A DNA stretch of 64,000 nt from Antedon mediterranea (Eukaryota; Echinodermata; Crinoidea; Comatulida; Antedonidae). Under the pieces are notes generated by a model. The model was given only the letters and a program-made list of their open reading frames with translations, had not been told where the DNA came from and searched no databases. The DNA lies in NCBI RefSeq assembly GCF_964355755.1, contig NC_092675.1, positions 21,218,912 through 21,282,911 on the forward strand. Reading direction: 5' to 3'. Below, one piece after another: positions 31,756 through 54,030 of the stretch. Position numbers and translations under genes: made by a program. Positions within the stretch are counted from its first letter, which is position 1; the number at the start of each line of letters is the position of its first letter.

Positions 31756-34432
31756 TTATTCAAAATCAAATACTAGGCCCGTTCCGTGAAGATTTTCTCT
31801 GATCTTAGCTTCAAACTGCTCATTTTGAGCCACTGTGAAGTGGTTCTTCCAGTCACCAATTTGACCTAAAAAATTAATAAACAGTGTTTTGATTTTGGGC
31901 AAGAAACACATTATATTAGAAGTACCGAGAACTTGGCTTGAAATTGAATGGAAAAATATCCTTTAAGCATGTCAACCGTGGGCTGTCTCAGCAATAGTCT
32001 AGGTTCAATCATATTAATGCCAGTATGAGAACTTGCGAACAAAATAATATAATGAAAAAAACTTTCCCGATCATACCATACGTTGTCGAAGCATGGATGT
32101 AGCATTGCTTAGTTGTTTACATAAAATTACGAACCTTTTCTGATAAATGATGATTTCCCCATGGCTTTTGTGAGGAACACTCCATCTTTCACGTTCTTCT
32201 CAACATTGTCGTAAGTTTTCTTCATATTTTTTACATCCGAGTAATGAACTACATTGTCAAGTTCTTCATCCGTTAGACAGCGCTCAAGATGATCGGCAAA
32301 CTTAGTGACCGATCCTCTTGGATCCTTAAAAAGAAATTTTAAAATAATTATTCATTCTAAAAGAATAATATTAGCAATTTTCACTATATATCTACGCTTT
32401 TTAACATTTATTCTTGCAGTCATAAAACTAAAAGTATTTTGATTAAAGTTAAATAGAGTCTATAAACAATTACATTACATTCAAGAATTATTATTTACAA
32501 TCATCGTCTTGCTCACTCACTGTGTTTATCAATCATATTGTGTTGTATTTAGGCCTATTTATCTTTTTTGGGGGTTCAATCTTAATTTTATTATAAATAT
32601 CAGCATTTTTAGTTGGAACTGAATCGGTTGTATCTTTTTAATTGTCTACAATTCATGTTGGCCGGAAATAACACTGAGTTAAACTAAATGTTATGAGGGT
32701 TAGTGCAGACCAGCTGTTTGATCGAAGAAAATTCTTAACGAACATCTTAGTAGGCTATTTAGTGCTGAATAGGTTTTCGACTCCAGTTCTACGACGAAGA
32801 AGAGGATCCCATATGTATGTATGTATGTGTGTTTAGGCCTAGTTATGTACTGAGCAGTCTGTCTTGGTTGACTGTTCCTTATGAAAATGGTTGATTGAAT
32901 ATCAGAAGTAAGCTATAGCTATGTATACCCTTTTCATATCTTCATACTTCATATACAAAAAGTTTGAATCGTGTCGATGTTTCCAGTAATCTAGAACATG
33001 TGTAAAGAATCCTCCCAATAGTACTGCAAAAATGAATTAAGATACAGTGGTTAGAACATATGCAATGTATATAGTGTGTGATAGAACTCAGATACAGAAA
33101 AATGCGTTTATCCTCACTATCTTCTTGTTTTATCCATTCGTCAACAAAAGTACTCCAATTTGTATGAGCCGTCATACCAACTCCTTTTGTAGCATGATAC
33201 AAGGATACTCCACAATCCTTAGGATTTCGGGTGACGTATATCACCTGTAAGAGGAGTTTAGTAGTATTTTTAAGAAACAGGTCGTTGGCAGCACTTCTTA
33301 TTACTATCACGGCTTATGGGACGCCGTGTCAAAGCACAACTACAGTTAGGTGGGCTTAAGTAACTACAGTTTAAGTAAAGACGATGCTCTTGCGTCATTT
33401 AGCAATATGTTACTTGAGGGAAAGCTCGCGTTTACACAATATTGCAAATCATTAGCAAATTTATCAATACTGTATTCTAAATAAACATTGTTCTCCTTCT
33501 CATACTTAAATCATAACATGAAAATCAAATCGTACCTTCGGTTTCTTTGTAAACACTTGAGGAGGAAGTAGAGATTCGGGAAGATGGGTGAGAATAACTC
33601 TTTGACCTTTCTTTGCTTCAATCTTTTTGTAAAATGGCTCAAAAGATTTCATGTCAGTTTTGTCCTTTATGTAAGACATTTCCAGAGGAGCTTCCTGACA
33701 AGTACGGTCAATTTTGTCCGGATCACCACCATTTAGAATTAAATTGATAATTTCATACGACCAGTGCGTACCTAAAAGAAGCCAAGAGTCTTAGCGCCTG
33801 CTTTCCACGAAAAAAAAAATGTATTTGGGATTCGTTTATGTGTAAATACGTCACTATAGAAAACTGTTCCAGTGGGACTTTACTAACAAATTGGGCAATC
33901 CGTCTTGAGGAGACACATTAATAGGGCGAAATTGCTACCTATAAATGGTTATTGGCTGTTAATATCACAATATAGATATTTTGAAACAGTTAACATTTGA
34001 TTACGGCTCTTTGCATCGGGACCAACATTACCGATAAAGTCAATATCTTCGCCCCTCTTCCTGTTTATCTAATGTTTTTAATATAATACAATCGTTTCTT
34101 TTCTAATAGTAATAATTATATGTTGTGTTCATTAAATTGAACATAAAATGAACGTTATTCGAATTATATCGTGAATAGGACCATGAGTATTGTAAAACCA
34201 ATGTTAAAGTAATGTTATTATTAGTGTTAAACACCTTATACCGATATGTGAAATGTATTTATTTACCACACTTTGCGTAAGTCACTAAAAATATATCGTC
34301 AGGTCTGACTTCGAACGTTGCCATGGCATCCAAATTTCCAGGAGGAAGCATCATCATATGGAACTTAATCCCTTTGTAATGATAGTACCCCTTCTGGAAC
34401 TTTTCGGTTGAAAATTGGTCTGCGGCTGACAT
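31756..34432 (-). CDS. ST-3: cytosolic sulfotransferase, 307 aa
   Basis: Exons: 34432-34267, 33771-33536, 33244-33118, 33023-32929, 32324-32135, 31865-31756; GT-AG throughout, 924 coding bases, stop TAA. N-terminus MSAADQFSTEKFQKGYY. Motifs: TYAKCGTHW loop (Lys about 54), His about 118 in THLPESLLP, YVTRNPKDCGVS, and RKGQIGDWKNHFTVAQNE. One codon shorter in exon 3 than ST-2 and ST-4. Exon 4 ends MKR instead of MKK, as in ST-4. Closest paralogue is ST-4: intron 2 shares a nearly identical block of about 55 bases. Its intron 4 preserves the empty site of the Helitron-like insertion found in ST-4. Confidence 0.93.
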
Positions 34433-35911: not shown

Positions 35912-38900
35912 TTATTCAAAATCAAATACAAGGCCTGTTTCGTGAAGATTCTCTCTGATAACAGCATCAAACTTCTCATTTTGAGCCACAGTGAAGTGGT
36001 TCTTCCAGTCACCAATTTGACCTAAAAATAAACACATTGGATGCCAGTTTGTGAGGATTTGAGTAAAAAATAATATAAAAGAAACATTTTCCATACTTTA
36101 CTGTCTGTAGGCCTATTGTAGTTTTTACTGAATGATTTGGTTGTCGAAATGGTCGAACAATCCCCCAGAACAGAAGTAACCAGCTAGCTTGCTTGATTGT
36201 TTAAATATAATTACGAACCTTTTCTGATAAATGATGATTTCCCCATGGCTTTTGTTAGGAACACGCCATCTTTCACGTTCTTCTCAACATTGTCGTAAGT
36301 TTTCTTCATATTTTTTACTTCAGAGTGATGAACTACCTTGTCAAGTTCTTCATCCGTTAGAGTGCGCTGCAGATGATCGGCAAACTTAACAATCGATCCT
36401 CTTGGATCCTAAAAAGCAATTTTAAAATAATATTTATACTAAAATGTTAGCAATTTTCACTATATGTTTACGCTTTTTAACATTTATTCATGAAATCGTA
36501 AAAATAAAAGCATTTTGATTGAAATAAATAATGTATTTATGACATTTTTATGAAATTGTATTTCCATGTTTTTTCTGTAAGCATATTTTGTTGTATTTAT
36601 TTTCTATCTTAATTGTAGTATAAATATCAGCATCAGTTGGAACTCAACCGGTCGTATCTTTGTAATCTATATATAAATTTACGTAAGGGCAAAATTCGGT
36701 AAATCGCGCGTTATTTCTACAATGTTTACTCGATTGTATATAAAGTTGGTTCGTACTTTCGGTACTGATTTTAACCACCTGATGTAACCCTGTTTACTAA
36801 TTAAATTTAGTTCGATAATTAGTTATTGACAATTAAAACGAATTTAGGTTCAATGATTTGCCCCAAGTAGGGGTGTTTTTCAATCGTGGTATACACTGTC
36901 TAATGGACGTCCATCTTGAAAAATACCCGCAGACAATAATACGAGGATGCTTCGCATTTTCCTATCTCCTCCTACGATAATTGTTTTTAATGGCTGAAAA
37001 CTGGTTGAACAGCTCGAGTACAGCATCATAATGTTGAAGACAGGCCGATTTTCTTTAAAAAATACTATTTTGATAGATTTAATATACGTTTATACAAATG
37101 TATTGATTTGCGATGAATGGAACATTCCAAATTATTTGGTTTAACCATGCTTGCATACCTCCATGGTTTAACACAAGTAGGTAAATTTATGGGCCATTGG
37201 AGAATAAACATAAATAGTATTGTAATGCTATACAATACTGTAAATAGGTATTAACCACTTTAGATCGCCATTTGAATCGCAAATTTCTTATTGTGTGTGT
37301 TGGGACTGTTAGATATAATATAAACAAAAATACAAATAAACTTATTACTGTGAGTGTGGGTAGCCCCTAATTTTAGATTATAAACACATAATAATATAAT
37401 ACTTTATTACTTACAGTTGCTTCTCAACGTTTGTATTAATTAATAATTACAAAAAATATAAACGTCGTAGTGGTGTATCGTTACATGTACTTTACTATTT
37501 CAATCGACTATGACAGTGACAATTGTAACAGTTAATAAATCGGAAATGTTTTACTCTATTTAGTGGTATATTATTTATAGGCCTATAAAAAACATATTTC
37601 GTTACTTAGTGGATAATAAAGAAATATAAAGAATAATTTAATATAAAGAATATATTAAAAAATTGTTCCTCTTTGTATCTATCCTCATCCCAACCCTCAA
37701 CCCTAATGTTAGATACAAAACACAAATTGGGTTTGTATAAATAAGTCAAAATTTAACATTTTGACTCATTTTGTGACAAGTTTCTCTGTTGGAAGTAATT
37801 CGCAGGGTGCTAATTTTGGTACACTACATAAATCATTGTGTATATTTATTTGTTTCTGTAAACGACAATGTTTTTTAGTCATGCGGTACGTAAATTTGAA
37901 ATCGCCAGTTTTTTTACGCTGAAATTACATGTATTCGAGAACCATCTGTGGGCACGACCTAGATGGTACGCGAGCGAAGCGAGCGTACCATCTAGTTGTC
38001 TACAATTCATGTTGTCGGAAAGAACACGCCCTAAAGCGACAACCTAATCAATGGGGTGTGCATCAAATGTATACTGCAGACCCTGTTTGTATGTGTATTT
38101 AGGCATAGTTATGTACTTTGGGCAGTCTGTCATTGATTTTGTTCTGTAGTAGCCAACGTGCAGTATCCAATAGATAGTTTTAAAAAACAGTAAAGTTAGT
38201 TGACAGTTCTTTAAGGAAATGGTTGATTGAATATCAGAAAAAACTGTAGCTATTTGCATACCCTTTTCATATCTTCATACTTCATATACAAAAAGTTTGA
38301 ATCATGTCGATGTTTCCAGTATTCCAGAACATGGGTAAAAAATCCTCCCATCAGCACTGCAAGAAAACCCCAACATTATGATACAGTGGTTAGAACATAC
38401 AATGTATGTAGTTATGATGTTATTATGATGATAAAAGAAAGTTGTTGGCTAGAACTCAGATAGGCCTAAAGAAAAATACGTTTATCCTCACAATCTTCTT
38501 GTTTTATCCATTCGTCAACAAATGTACTCCAAGATTCATCCAGAGCCGACATACCAATTCCCTTTTTCGCATGATACAAGGATACTCCACAATCTTTAGG
38601 ATTTCGGGTGACGTATATCACCTGTGAGAGGAGTTTAGATTTAGAGTCTTTTATTACGGACTTTGAAGAAACAGGTCGTTGGCAGCACTTCTTATCACTA
38701 TCACGGCTTATGGGACGCCGTTTCATTGATATCTTCAAGTTGTTAATTTAAATGAATCGAGTTTAGTTTATGTTCTATAGGCCTAAGTTGTGAGACGAAA
38801 TTCGTACGGTATGCAAGAACAATGGATATTAAAGTGCCTACCTATAGTTATACCATGGAGTACTCGAGTATGTATATACCGAGTATACGAGTGCAGACAT

Positions 38901-48910: not shown

Positions 48911-51900
48911 TAGGAGTGACATTAATACCAATCTCAGGCGGACACTGAGTATTCTAGAGTCTCCTCTACAAATGCTTTATGAGTCGTGTTATCCACACAG
49001 TTAAACAAATTCTCATAACTAGATGGCACGCTCGCTTCGCTCGCGTACCATCTAGGGGTGCTCACAGATGGTTCTCGAATACAGTAGAATAGAATAGAGA
49101 CAACAAAACCAATACTGGATTCCATAAAGGACAATTAATTTATGTGGACTAAAGAAATTAGGGAGAAATGGAAATGTATGTACCGGGGAATTGGGCGGCA
49201 CGTGGTGGTGGTGATGGAACCGCAGTAATAAAGTTGATTGTATTTATATATTATAAGAACCAAACTAAATAAATAGACCTAGACATTCTGCGAAATGGAA
49301 ATCGGAAATTCAAGCTCCTATTCAGTGAAAAATTAAACTGTAGTCTACCTAAATATTTAGGGCAAATCATCGGTTGTGGTGGTTGAAATTCCTGTAAACA
49401 TTTGTGTGAACCAAACTGGGTCGAATTTCTGTCATGAGTACTGATTTGTTGGCCTGTGATTTATGACGCCTAAGGGATCTATCTAGACTTATTTTTTAGA
49501 ATAATGTACGTACCTGTCAGATACAATTGTCTTGTGTCGTATAATAAATAAGTACTGTAATAGTTACTGAAGTTACTATTACAATCTCGTCAATGAAAAC
49601 ACGAAAATGTATATGCACTTACTTATGAAAACGTATACAGTATTATACTCAGTTATTGAAACAGTAGGTTTAAAAAAGTTTCGTTTGTCTGTAAAATGAT
49701 GTAATCAAGCTGTTTACATGAGTCTTAATTTATAAGCACATCAATAATAAAATAGTTTATCTATCCTGTAATTGGCGACATTATGGTCGCTGTTGAATGA
49801 AATAAAGCCAATCGGTATCATATTTGTACAGAAACGTTTTCGCGGCCGAAGGGTGTAACCTAAATTCGTTGTATTATCGTCAAGAACTAACTGTAACTAA
49901 ACTTACATAGAAAGTAGGGTATCATAAATTTGGCCTTAGCACTCGGGGGAGTGGCTAAGATGAAGTCCGTGGGACTACTAAATATAAATTGTAATGAACA
50001 TAAATAGGAATATTTCATGTTTCATTATCAATGTATAATAAATGGAAACTGTTTACCGATTCAAATAATATAAATTGGTTTTTAACATTTTCCGAACCTA
50101 TTGCAAGTTTATTCTCAAAGGGCCCATATATTTACCTACCGTATGTGTTAAACCAAGGGCTCATAAATTTACCTACAGTACTTGTGTTAAACCAAACTCT
50201 GGCAGACTGAGAGATTGGGATGTTCCATTCATCGCAAATCAATACATTTGTATAATCGTATATTAAATCTATCAAAATAGTCTTTTTTAAAGAAAATCGG
50301 CCTGTCTTCAACATTATGATGGTGTACTCTAGCAATCTATCAAAATAGTATTTTTTTAAAGAAAATCGGCCTGTCTTCAACATTATGATGGTGTACTCTA
50401 GCTGTTCAACCGGTTTTCAGCTATTAAAAACAATTATCGTAGGAGGAGATAGGAAAATGCGAAGCCTCCTTGCTATGTAACATTAGGGTTGAGGGATGGG
50501 AAAGCGGATAGGTACAAAGAGGAACAATTTTTAAATATATTCTTTATCCACTGAGTAACGAAATATTTTGTTCATGTTTTATAGGCCTATAAATAATATA
50601 CCTCTAAATACAGTAGGCCTAAAACATTTGCGATTTAATACTTTGTTAAAACTGTCACTGTCATAATCGATTGAAATATTAAAGTACATGTCACGATACA
50701 CCACTACGACGTTTATATTTTTGGTAATTATTAATTAATACAAACGTTGAGAAGGAACTGTCAGTATAAAGTTTATTTGTATATCTAACAGTAGAGCCTA
50801 TCCACAGTCTCAGTAATAAAGTTTATTTGTATATATTTTTATATTACATCTAACAGTACGAACATTCACAGTAAGAAATGTTCGATTCAAATGAAAAATA
50901 GTTAATAGGTATTTACAGTATTGTCAAAGTATTGCAAGTTTATTCTCAAAGGGCCCATATATTTACCTACCGTATGTGTTAAACCAAGGGCTCATAAATT
51001 TACCTACAGTACTTGTGTTAAACCAAACTCTGGCAGACTGAGAGATTGGGATGTTCCATTCATCGCAAATCAATACATTTGTATAATCGTATATTAAATC
51101 TATCAAAATAGTATTTTTTTAAGAAAATCGGCCTGTCTTCAACATTATGATGCTGTACTCTAGCTGTTCAACCGGTTTTCAGCTATTAAAAACAATTATC
51201 GTAGGAGGAGATAGGAAAATGCGAAGCCTCCTCGCATTTTTTTGGCGGGTATTTTTCAAGATGGACATCCATTAGACAGTGTATACCACGATCGGAAAAC
51301 ACCCCTATTTGGGGCAAATCGTTGAACCTAAATTCGTTTTAATCGTCAATAACTAATTATCTAACTCAATTTAATTAGTAAACAGGGTTACATCAGGCGG
51401 TTAAAATCAGTACCGAAAGTACGAACCAACTTTACATACCATCGAGTGAAAATTCTAGAAGTAAGGCGCGATTTACCGAATTTTGCCCTTACGTAAATTT
51501 ATATATAGATTATTCACCACTAACATTATCAATAACTTCAGAGGTAGGCCTATAGCTCTAGTATCGTTCATATCACCTTCCCAAAAACCTTGGTAGTCCC
51601 TATTACTGTTGTAGGCCTAAGACTGAGCTAATTTATCAGCTCTCAGTTGTTGATCATTCTGTTTACACGTGCGTAATGCCAACTTAAAACGAGAACGAGA
51701 TATTTTCATAGAATGAAACAAGGGCCCATTCCTTGGTTTCCCGTTGTTAGTTCTCCATAATAAGAAGGCTTCACGAGCAACAGAATGCAGATCAGAAACA
51801 TAATCATTCCAGCCCGGCACAATATTATATGACTTGGACCTAGTGGGCTTCAAACATTCACTAGATGCACGTTTTAGGCAAGCAATAATATTGTTATACA

Positions 51901-53164: not shown

Positions 53165-54030
53165 TTATTCAAAATCAAATACTAATCCGGTGGTATGAAG
53201 ATTCTCTCTGATAACAACATCAAACTGCTCATTTTGAGCAACAGTGAAGTGGTTCTTCCAGTCACCAATTTGACCTTAACATAGATAATAAAGATATTTT
53301 CTGTTGGAATATGTACAAGTGCAATATGGAAAGTTAATTATAAGACCAGAAATTGTAAATAAAATAATACAACAATGACTATTACGGTAGCCAATATACC
53401 ACTATGTTATTTTTCGAGAATTATTTGCTGGAAAAAATCGCGCTGCACTTACTATCCAATTACAACACAACGAATTATTCTGACTAGAGGGTGAGCTCGC
53501 TTCGCTCGCTCCCCCTCTAGGAAGTGTAGACGATGGTTCTCGGAATGATAATGACTCAGGACGTAAAAAGTCTTAGAAGGACATTCTGGCCTGGACAATT
53601 TCGGTCGGTTACCATTATTTAAATGCTTTTGATATTCGTAAAACTAAACGTACTCACTAACCTAAAATAACAAATGCTTGGTAAATTGTAGATAACAATC
53701 CGAAGAAATCTATACTAAAAATAGTATAATTGTGTTATAAATATAATACAATATTGTGTGTATAAATGTGGATGGGCGTTTATTAGATGTATTTGGGGTT
53801 GGGGGGGGGGGGGAGAGTGGTGAGTAGCGAGATATTTATTTAAATTGATGTTTTGTTCCGGGCGTTTATTCAAATAAATACCATCCTAATTGGTATAATT
53901 AATACATTATTCCGCGACACAGTGGCCTAAGAAGGAAGACGTTTTAGACGGCTTGCAACATGGGCAGAAGTATCCCAGGGTCCTGACGGGACACAGATAG
54001 CGCACAGTATACATAAAGTCCTGGCAGATT

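Follow-up and report, generated by a model that had tools for sequence, protein, structure and literature searches.

One intron of the gene ST-4 of Antedon mediterranea contains a 1330-bp segment that is missing from the paralogue ST-3, which raises the question of what the segment is, when it arrived and which enzyme moved it. Both genes lie in the window, that is, the whole 64,000-nucleotide stretch of DNA that was analyzed. The ST-4 junctions read ...gtatctttgtaA/TCTATATATAAATTTACG...GCGTACCATCTAG/Ttgtctacaattcatgttg (a slash marks a border), so that the A/TC...CTAG/T borders and the size proposed in an earlier note were confirmed directly in the window sequence. The element occupies positions 36666–37995 of the plus strand, starts with TCTATATATAAATTTACGTAAGGG and finishes with a hairpin closing in CTAG. 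A host A stands directly before it (36665), and the 3′ flank of the target (37996–38007, plus strand) has T at +1 and AATT at +9 to +12 (38004–38007). The 5′ terminus, TCTATATATAAATTTACGTAAGGGCAA (36666–36692, plus strand), also contains an AATT, at +11 from the A/T border; this terminus is common to the subfamilies described below, and the autonomous partner has a version of it with indels. The border is ambiguous by one base, since element and 3′ flank both begin with T, and parsing the site as A/T or T/T describes identical DNA. No long open reading frame was found within the element. The host genes, on the minus strand, are presumably sulfotransferase-like, as judged from frames with VIYVTRNPKDCGVSLYHA by knowledge of the family rather than by a profile search; the element, on the plus strand, is therefore intronic and antisense to its host gene. 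A MITE or another cut-and-paste element was rejected because the termini are not inverted and the target is not duplicated.

The intact target was found in the ST-3 intron (32640–32653, plus strand), where the junction reads ...gtatctttttaA/Ttgtctacaattcatgttg between A32641 and T32642 and an AATT is already present at 32650–32653. When the two introns were aligned, which was the check asked for in the earlier note, homology ended exactly at 32641 and restarted at 32642, with a local identity of about 85% by substitutions. A 22-base pattern spanning the junction matched twice in the window, exactly in ST-3 and with one mismatch in ST-4, where none was expected. The ST-3 intron is thus uninterrupted at this point, as had been stated, and the claimed lack of a target duplication was borne out by the empty site. 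A second pair of filled and empty sites was provided by a copy nested in another copy in opposite orientation (L034), around which the resident resumes cleanly, again at an A/T site without duplication. The 3′ flank of this nested copy, TTAAAAACAATT, is identical at three ends (L034, C1:10481636 and C1:12965493) and equals a sequence found inside the element, so repeated nested insertion at a single hotspot is possible.

The genome (354 Mb, 18 contigs) was searched for further copies by similarity, and the best 40 of 3412 candidates were scored. Eleven among these best 40 were near full-length relatives at 88–96%, with many more partial copies or members of sister subfamilies. In 38 further regions that were compared, the shared sequence stopped at the same borders unless truncated, and the 3′ neighbor was T; neither sharing beyond the borders nor target duplications, which the earlier note had named as grounds for refutation, were seen. 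Most of the copies compared have TC...CTAG termini, like the window copy. The subfamilies are modular, with about 465 bp (often 927 bp) in common at the 5′ side and the last 190–350 bp in common at the 3′ side.

Exact-pattern counts over the whole genome gave 1794 5′ ends preceded by A and 227 preceded by another base, the latter with a pattern that left out cases with G at −6. Among 100 non-A cases listed, the preceding base was T in 67 and G in 6, and the remaining 27 were of the CTAG type, meaning the CTAG of another copy, either intact or changed at one base. At the other end, the CTAG/T pattern (up to two mismatches) was found 1589 times, and 66 matches had CTAG followed by a base other than T. 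About 61 of these 66 were CTAGG and were rejected as non-T insertions because they mark the inward side of hairpins in which the loop is inverted; about five genuine non-T ends are left, and the 3′ neighbor is T in more than 99% of ends. Many genomic copies thus share both ends, and their placement between A and T was nearly strict on the 3′ side and held for roughly 85–90% on the 5′ side, where the other 10–15% have T or another copy's 3′ end before them. The family has more than a thousand copies, of which the window copy is an ordinary one. The window itself holds a second, rearranged copy with intact A/TC...CTAG/T borders (49019–51509, minus strand; its 3′ flank has AATT at +8) and the 3′ end of a related element (53484–53546, minus strand) with the hairpin CTAGAGGG...CCCTCTAG and the 3′ flank TCAGAATAATT, which also has AATT at +8. 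The hairpin of this related element is diverged, and its changes are mostly compensated.

A genome search with Helitron_like_N (Pfam) revealed two classes of proteins, namely a few frames of 1380–1452 aa and a much longer class, mostly of 2500–3200 aa, at about 50 loci. One element encoding a protein of the shorter class, at C1:29677649–29686831 (9183 bp), starts with TCTATATTATAATTAACATACGTAAGGGCAA after an A and is followed by T, and its last 70 bp match the window copy with 93% identity; the two have only these 70 bp and about 30 nt of the 5′ terminus in common. Its uninterrupted frame of 1439 aa contains Helitron_like_N (9e-53), PIF1 (9e-70) and Pif1_2B, aligns to the bat Helraiser over about 1340 aa (E 1e-243) and retains HVH and YIYKY. 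The same type of 3′ hairpin, with changed stem bases, was present in two further RepHel copies (on C5 and C1) that are 99.5% identical to each other and whose 5′ end is masked by internal repeats, and the 3′ hairpin is also common to the element with the 1452-aa RepHel. Since a Helraiser-type RepHel is encoded by an element that has both ends in common with the window copy, the earlier label of Helitron-like was upheld and could be sharpened: the segment of 1330 bp can be classed, with a probability of about 95%, as a canonical Helitron (Helitron1-type) that is non-autonomous and served by a RepHel acting on the common ends. Two features speak against this reading, the small overlap between partner and window copy and a 3′ hairpin that reaches the very last base. 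Four characters of Helitron1 were found, namely 5′-TC and CTRR-3′ ends without terminal inverted repeats, A–T insertion without target-site duplication (empty site, L034 and genome counts), a hairpin near the 3′ end (13-bp stem) and a partner with matching ends that encodes an HUH-Y2 Rep and a PIF1-type helicase. The family resembles Helibat1/Helraiser in its TC...CTAG ends, in its A/T target without duplication and in the HUH-Y2 Rep with PIF1 helicase, as well as in the occasional TT targets and an AT-rich preference that is stronger on the 3′ flank (PMC4778049).

Two other accounts bear on the class and the age of the insertion. The abundant proteins of about 3100 aa could suggest that a Helentron/Helitron2-type (HINE) element was moved by them, and both the roughly 50 large-frame loci, mostly of 2500–3200 aa, and the 10–15% of insertions with a left T or other non-A base would agree with that. 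Helentrons, HINE, DINE-1 and FoHeli (Helitron2) do share with the present family the rolling-circle Rep/helicase superfamily and non-autonomous copies in high number, but they use TT or TNAT/A targets and carry subterminal inverted repeats at both ends. Here the dominant left neighbor is A, the inverted repeat observed at the element ends is the 3′ hairpin, and the ends are common with the 1439-aa RepHel element rather than with a large-Rep partner; an 18-kb region around one large-frame locus (L083–L084) had no similarity to the element ends, and TT is the first-named alternative dinucleotide for Helraiser too (PMC4778049). A Helentron origin was accordingly rejected on ends and partner and is extremely improbable. 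As for age, the element might formerly have been present in ST-3 and have been removed precisely, for instance by gene conversion from another paralogue, in which case the empty site would date nothing. The window holds several paralogues and conversion is possible in principle, but ST-3 and ST-4 agree in this intron right up to the border on either side, and the other paralogues in the window have no match spanning the insertion region, so that such a loss is very unlikely. Precise excision is not known for Helitrons. On the assumption that they do not excise precisely, the empty ST-3 site supports the proposal that the canonical Helitron was inserted after the ST-3/ST-4 duplication.

The 3′ hairpin (37959–37995, plus strand) has a 13-bp stem, CTAGATGGTACGC paired with GCGTACCATCTAG, that includes the terminal CTAG. 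This 37-nt end (CTAGATGGTACGC-loop-GCGTACCATCTAG) folds with −17.1 kcal/mol (z −4.5), and the final base of the stem is the final base of the element. CTAG falls inside the stem in each of the five family ends that were aligned, pairing holds in 96% of the pair cells (four distinct ends), and 3 of the 13 stem pairs show compensatory changes on both sides across the family ends, which is modest evidence of covariation, coming from just four distinct sequences. In Helitrons the hairpin usually stands 10–15 nt from the end (PMC13286980), a spacing that is descriptive rather than defining and that is zero in the present family; in Helraiser, 11 nt separate a 19-bp palindrome from the end, whereas here CTAG is inside the stem (PMC4778049). 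Because Helraiser without its hairpin still transposes, at reduced efficiency (PMC4778049), the zero-spacer hairpin was treated as a variant.

By analogy with Helraiser, transposition might proceed as follows. A RepHel protein (HUH-Y2 nuclease and PIF1-type helicase) would act on the common 5′ TC end and the 3′ CTAG hairpin; one strand would be nicked at the 5′ A/TC border and peeled off, and transfer would halt on reaching the 3′ hairpin. The intermediate, a circle or a strand (the circular route again being borrowed from Helraiser), would then be joined into a new A/T without duplication of the target. The element that mobilized the window copy was probably the C1 partner rather than a sister of it.

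The target preference extends past the dinucleotide to A/T-N6-7-AATT. Among the 1238 genome-wide 3′ ends with exact GCGTACCATCTAGT, AATT started at +7 to +11, mostly at +8 or +9, in 841 (68%), and a control interval of equal width nine bases further on contained it in 88 (7%); these counts include segmental duplicates, such as the repeated TTTAAACTCAATT on C1, and are not all independent. In 83 distinct flanks that were listed, AATT started at +8 in 46 and at +9 in 28. All three family ends in the window carry the motif in the 3′ flank. In an independent set, the ends of the other RepHel lineage, AATT occurred within the scanned range at 19 ends; it stood at +8 to +10 in 18 of them and far out in one, and one end was entered a second time at a nearer AATT. 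Simple AT-richness was rejected as the explanation by the shifted control and by the window background, in which AATT accompanies 6.0% of all A/T sites. The motif was also rejected as a part of the element, given that its spacing varies between +8 and +9, that the intervening sequence is free and that both the ST-3 site and the L034 resident hold it; as the empty ST-3 site already has the AATT, the motif belongs to the target.

In barley Helitrons, AAA is preferred from 8 bp downstream of the A–T site and was interpreted as a protein contact one helical turn away (PMC5738225). The AATT motif is a variant of this reported property, its animal parallel and not the first case. The asymmetric arrangement is the same in both, an A–T site plus a motif from 8 bp downstream; the barley motif is AAA in a plant host, whereas the present one is AATT at +8/+9 in an animal, at 68% against 7%, and it differs from the flank preference of Helraiser, described as AT-richness, in being positioned. 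The agreement between plant and animal suggests that Helitrons may generally contact the downstream target DNA when they integrate. The transposase itself presumably reads the AATT; simple patterns searched for in the RepHel gave no AT-hook that might serve as its reader.

Additionally, many copies abut one another exactly. CTAG/TCTATATA... junctions were found at 83 places genome-wide (up to three mismatches), and about 80 copies are joined head to tail as CTAG/TC, more than 1000-fold above random. With about 2070 copies, insertion at random A/T sites should produce about 0.03 abutting pairs in the same orientation, and insertion confined to motif sites about 1.3, both being rough values that use the composition of the window; because of segmental duplicates, such as three at C5:30.5 Mb, fewer of the junctions are independent. 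When a junction was used as the query, many other stacks matched at 87–96%, and some stacks may have moved as units, judging from this sequence likeness. The array at C3:30549934–30552569 has three successive junctions, and its complete unit 1 is 98.5% identical to a copy elsewhere (L015), of a subfamily unlike that of units 0 and 2. Neighbors also differ in subfamily in the L021 and L041 pairs.

The stacks can be accounted for in three ways. Rolling-circle read-through, in which the junctions would mark concatemers of one element instead of separate insertions, is how tandem Helitrons of bats, plants and silkworm are generally explained (PMC5876387; PMC4067079), and neighboring units of the C4 array are indeed 97% alike where compared. 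The match of the C3 unit to the distant L015 and the mixed L021 and L041 pairs speak against it, and since neighbors often come from different subfamilies, simple concatemers are disfavored and this origin seems doubtful for the stacks. Perfect CTAG/TC junctions would also be produced by homologous recombination between an excised circle with joined ends and a resident copy: Helraiser circles have exactly joined ends (PMC4778049; PMC5876387), and the 5′ block of about 465 bp common to the subfamilies would be enough for recombination. Chimeric units with crossovers in that block would then be expected, but the sole complete unit examined (unit 1 of L088) looks uniform over almost its whole length, even if a crossover within its common 5′ block could be invisible; this route, too, is rather unlikely. 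A newcomer inserting at the A/T of a resident 5′ end would explain the exact junction by the normal target rule, while insertion downstream of CTAG would need G/T, an uncommon site otherwise (6 of the 100 non-A cases listed). One possibility, somewhat less likely than not, is that the transposase reads targets as if they were its own 5′ end (A/T with AATT about one helical turn on), so that resident 5′ ends would be preferred and mixed-subfamily stacks would grow by serial insertion, not by read-through. The AATT spacing is +8/+9 in targets and +11 in the element's own 5′ end, in the autonomous partner as well as in the non-autonomous element. Exact head-to-tail junctions are compatible with rolling-circle and circular-intermediate transposition.

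Head-to-tail arrays, sometimes of distantly related neighbors, are on record for bat, maize and silkworm (PMC4067079; PMC5876387), with abutting Helitrons, even distantly related ones, described for bat and maize (PMC4067079). Compared with these, the present stacks comprise about 80 exact junctions of one family, counted genome-wide and set against a random expectation. The family is new and its kind, the canonical Helitron, is well known; the AATT motif and the stacks are both extensions of known observations. The single insertion in ST-4 is ordinary, and its clean empty site with exact borders makes a good anchor for annotation. Moreover, with more than 1000 exact-ended insertions, at least one uninterrupted RepHel frame, an asymmetric motif and about 80 exact stacks, the family is a natural data set for the reading of targets by Helitrons and for the formation of tandem Helitrons.

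Some minor features of the genome were also observed. The large uninterrupted Helitron_like_N frames, at about 50 loci and often clustered (for example at C8:930832–940266), look like a second, much larger rolling-circle family that was recently active. In about 4% of the ends of the present family (about 61 places in the genome), the loop and inner stem of the hairpin run opposite to those of most ends; the ends concerned belong to more than one subfamily (examples are L013, L038 and L047), suggesting repeated inversion at the palindrome. In three copies (L020, L035 and L041) the terminal hairpin is missing, apparently because the sequence between two CCATCT repeats was deleted, yet they terminate in or close to CTAG; similar hairpin-less ends were found at some stack junctions (GAGAACCATCTAG/TC).
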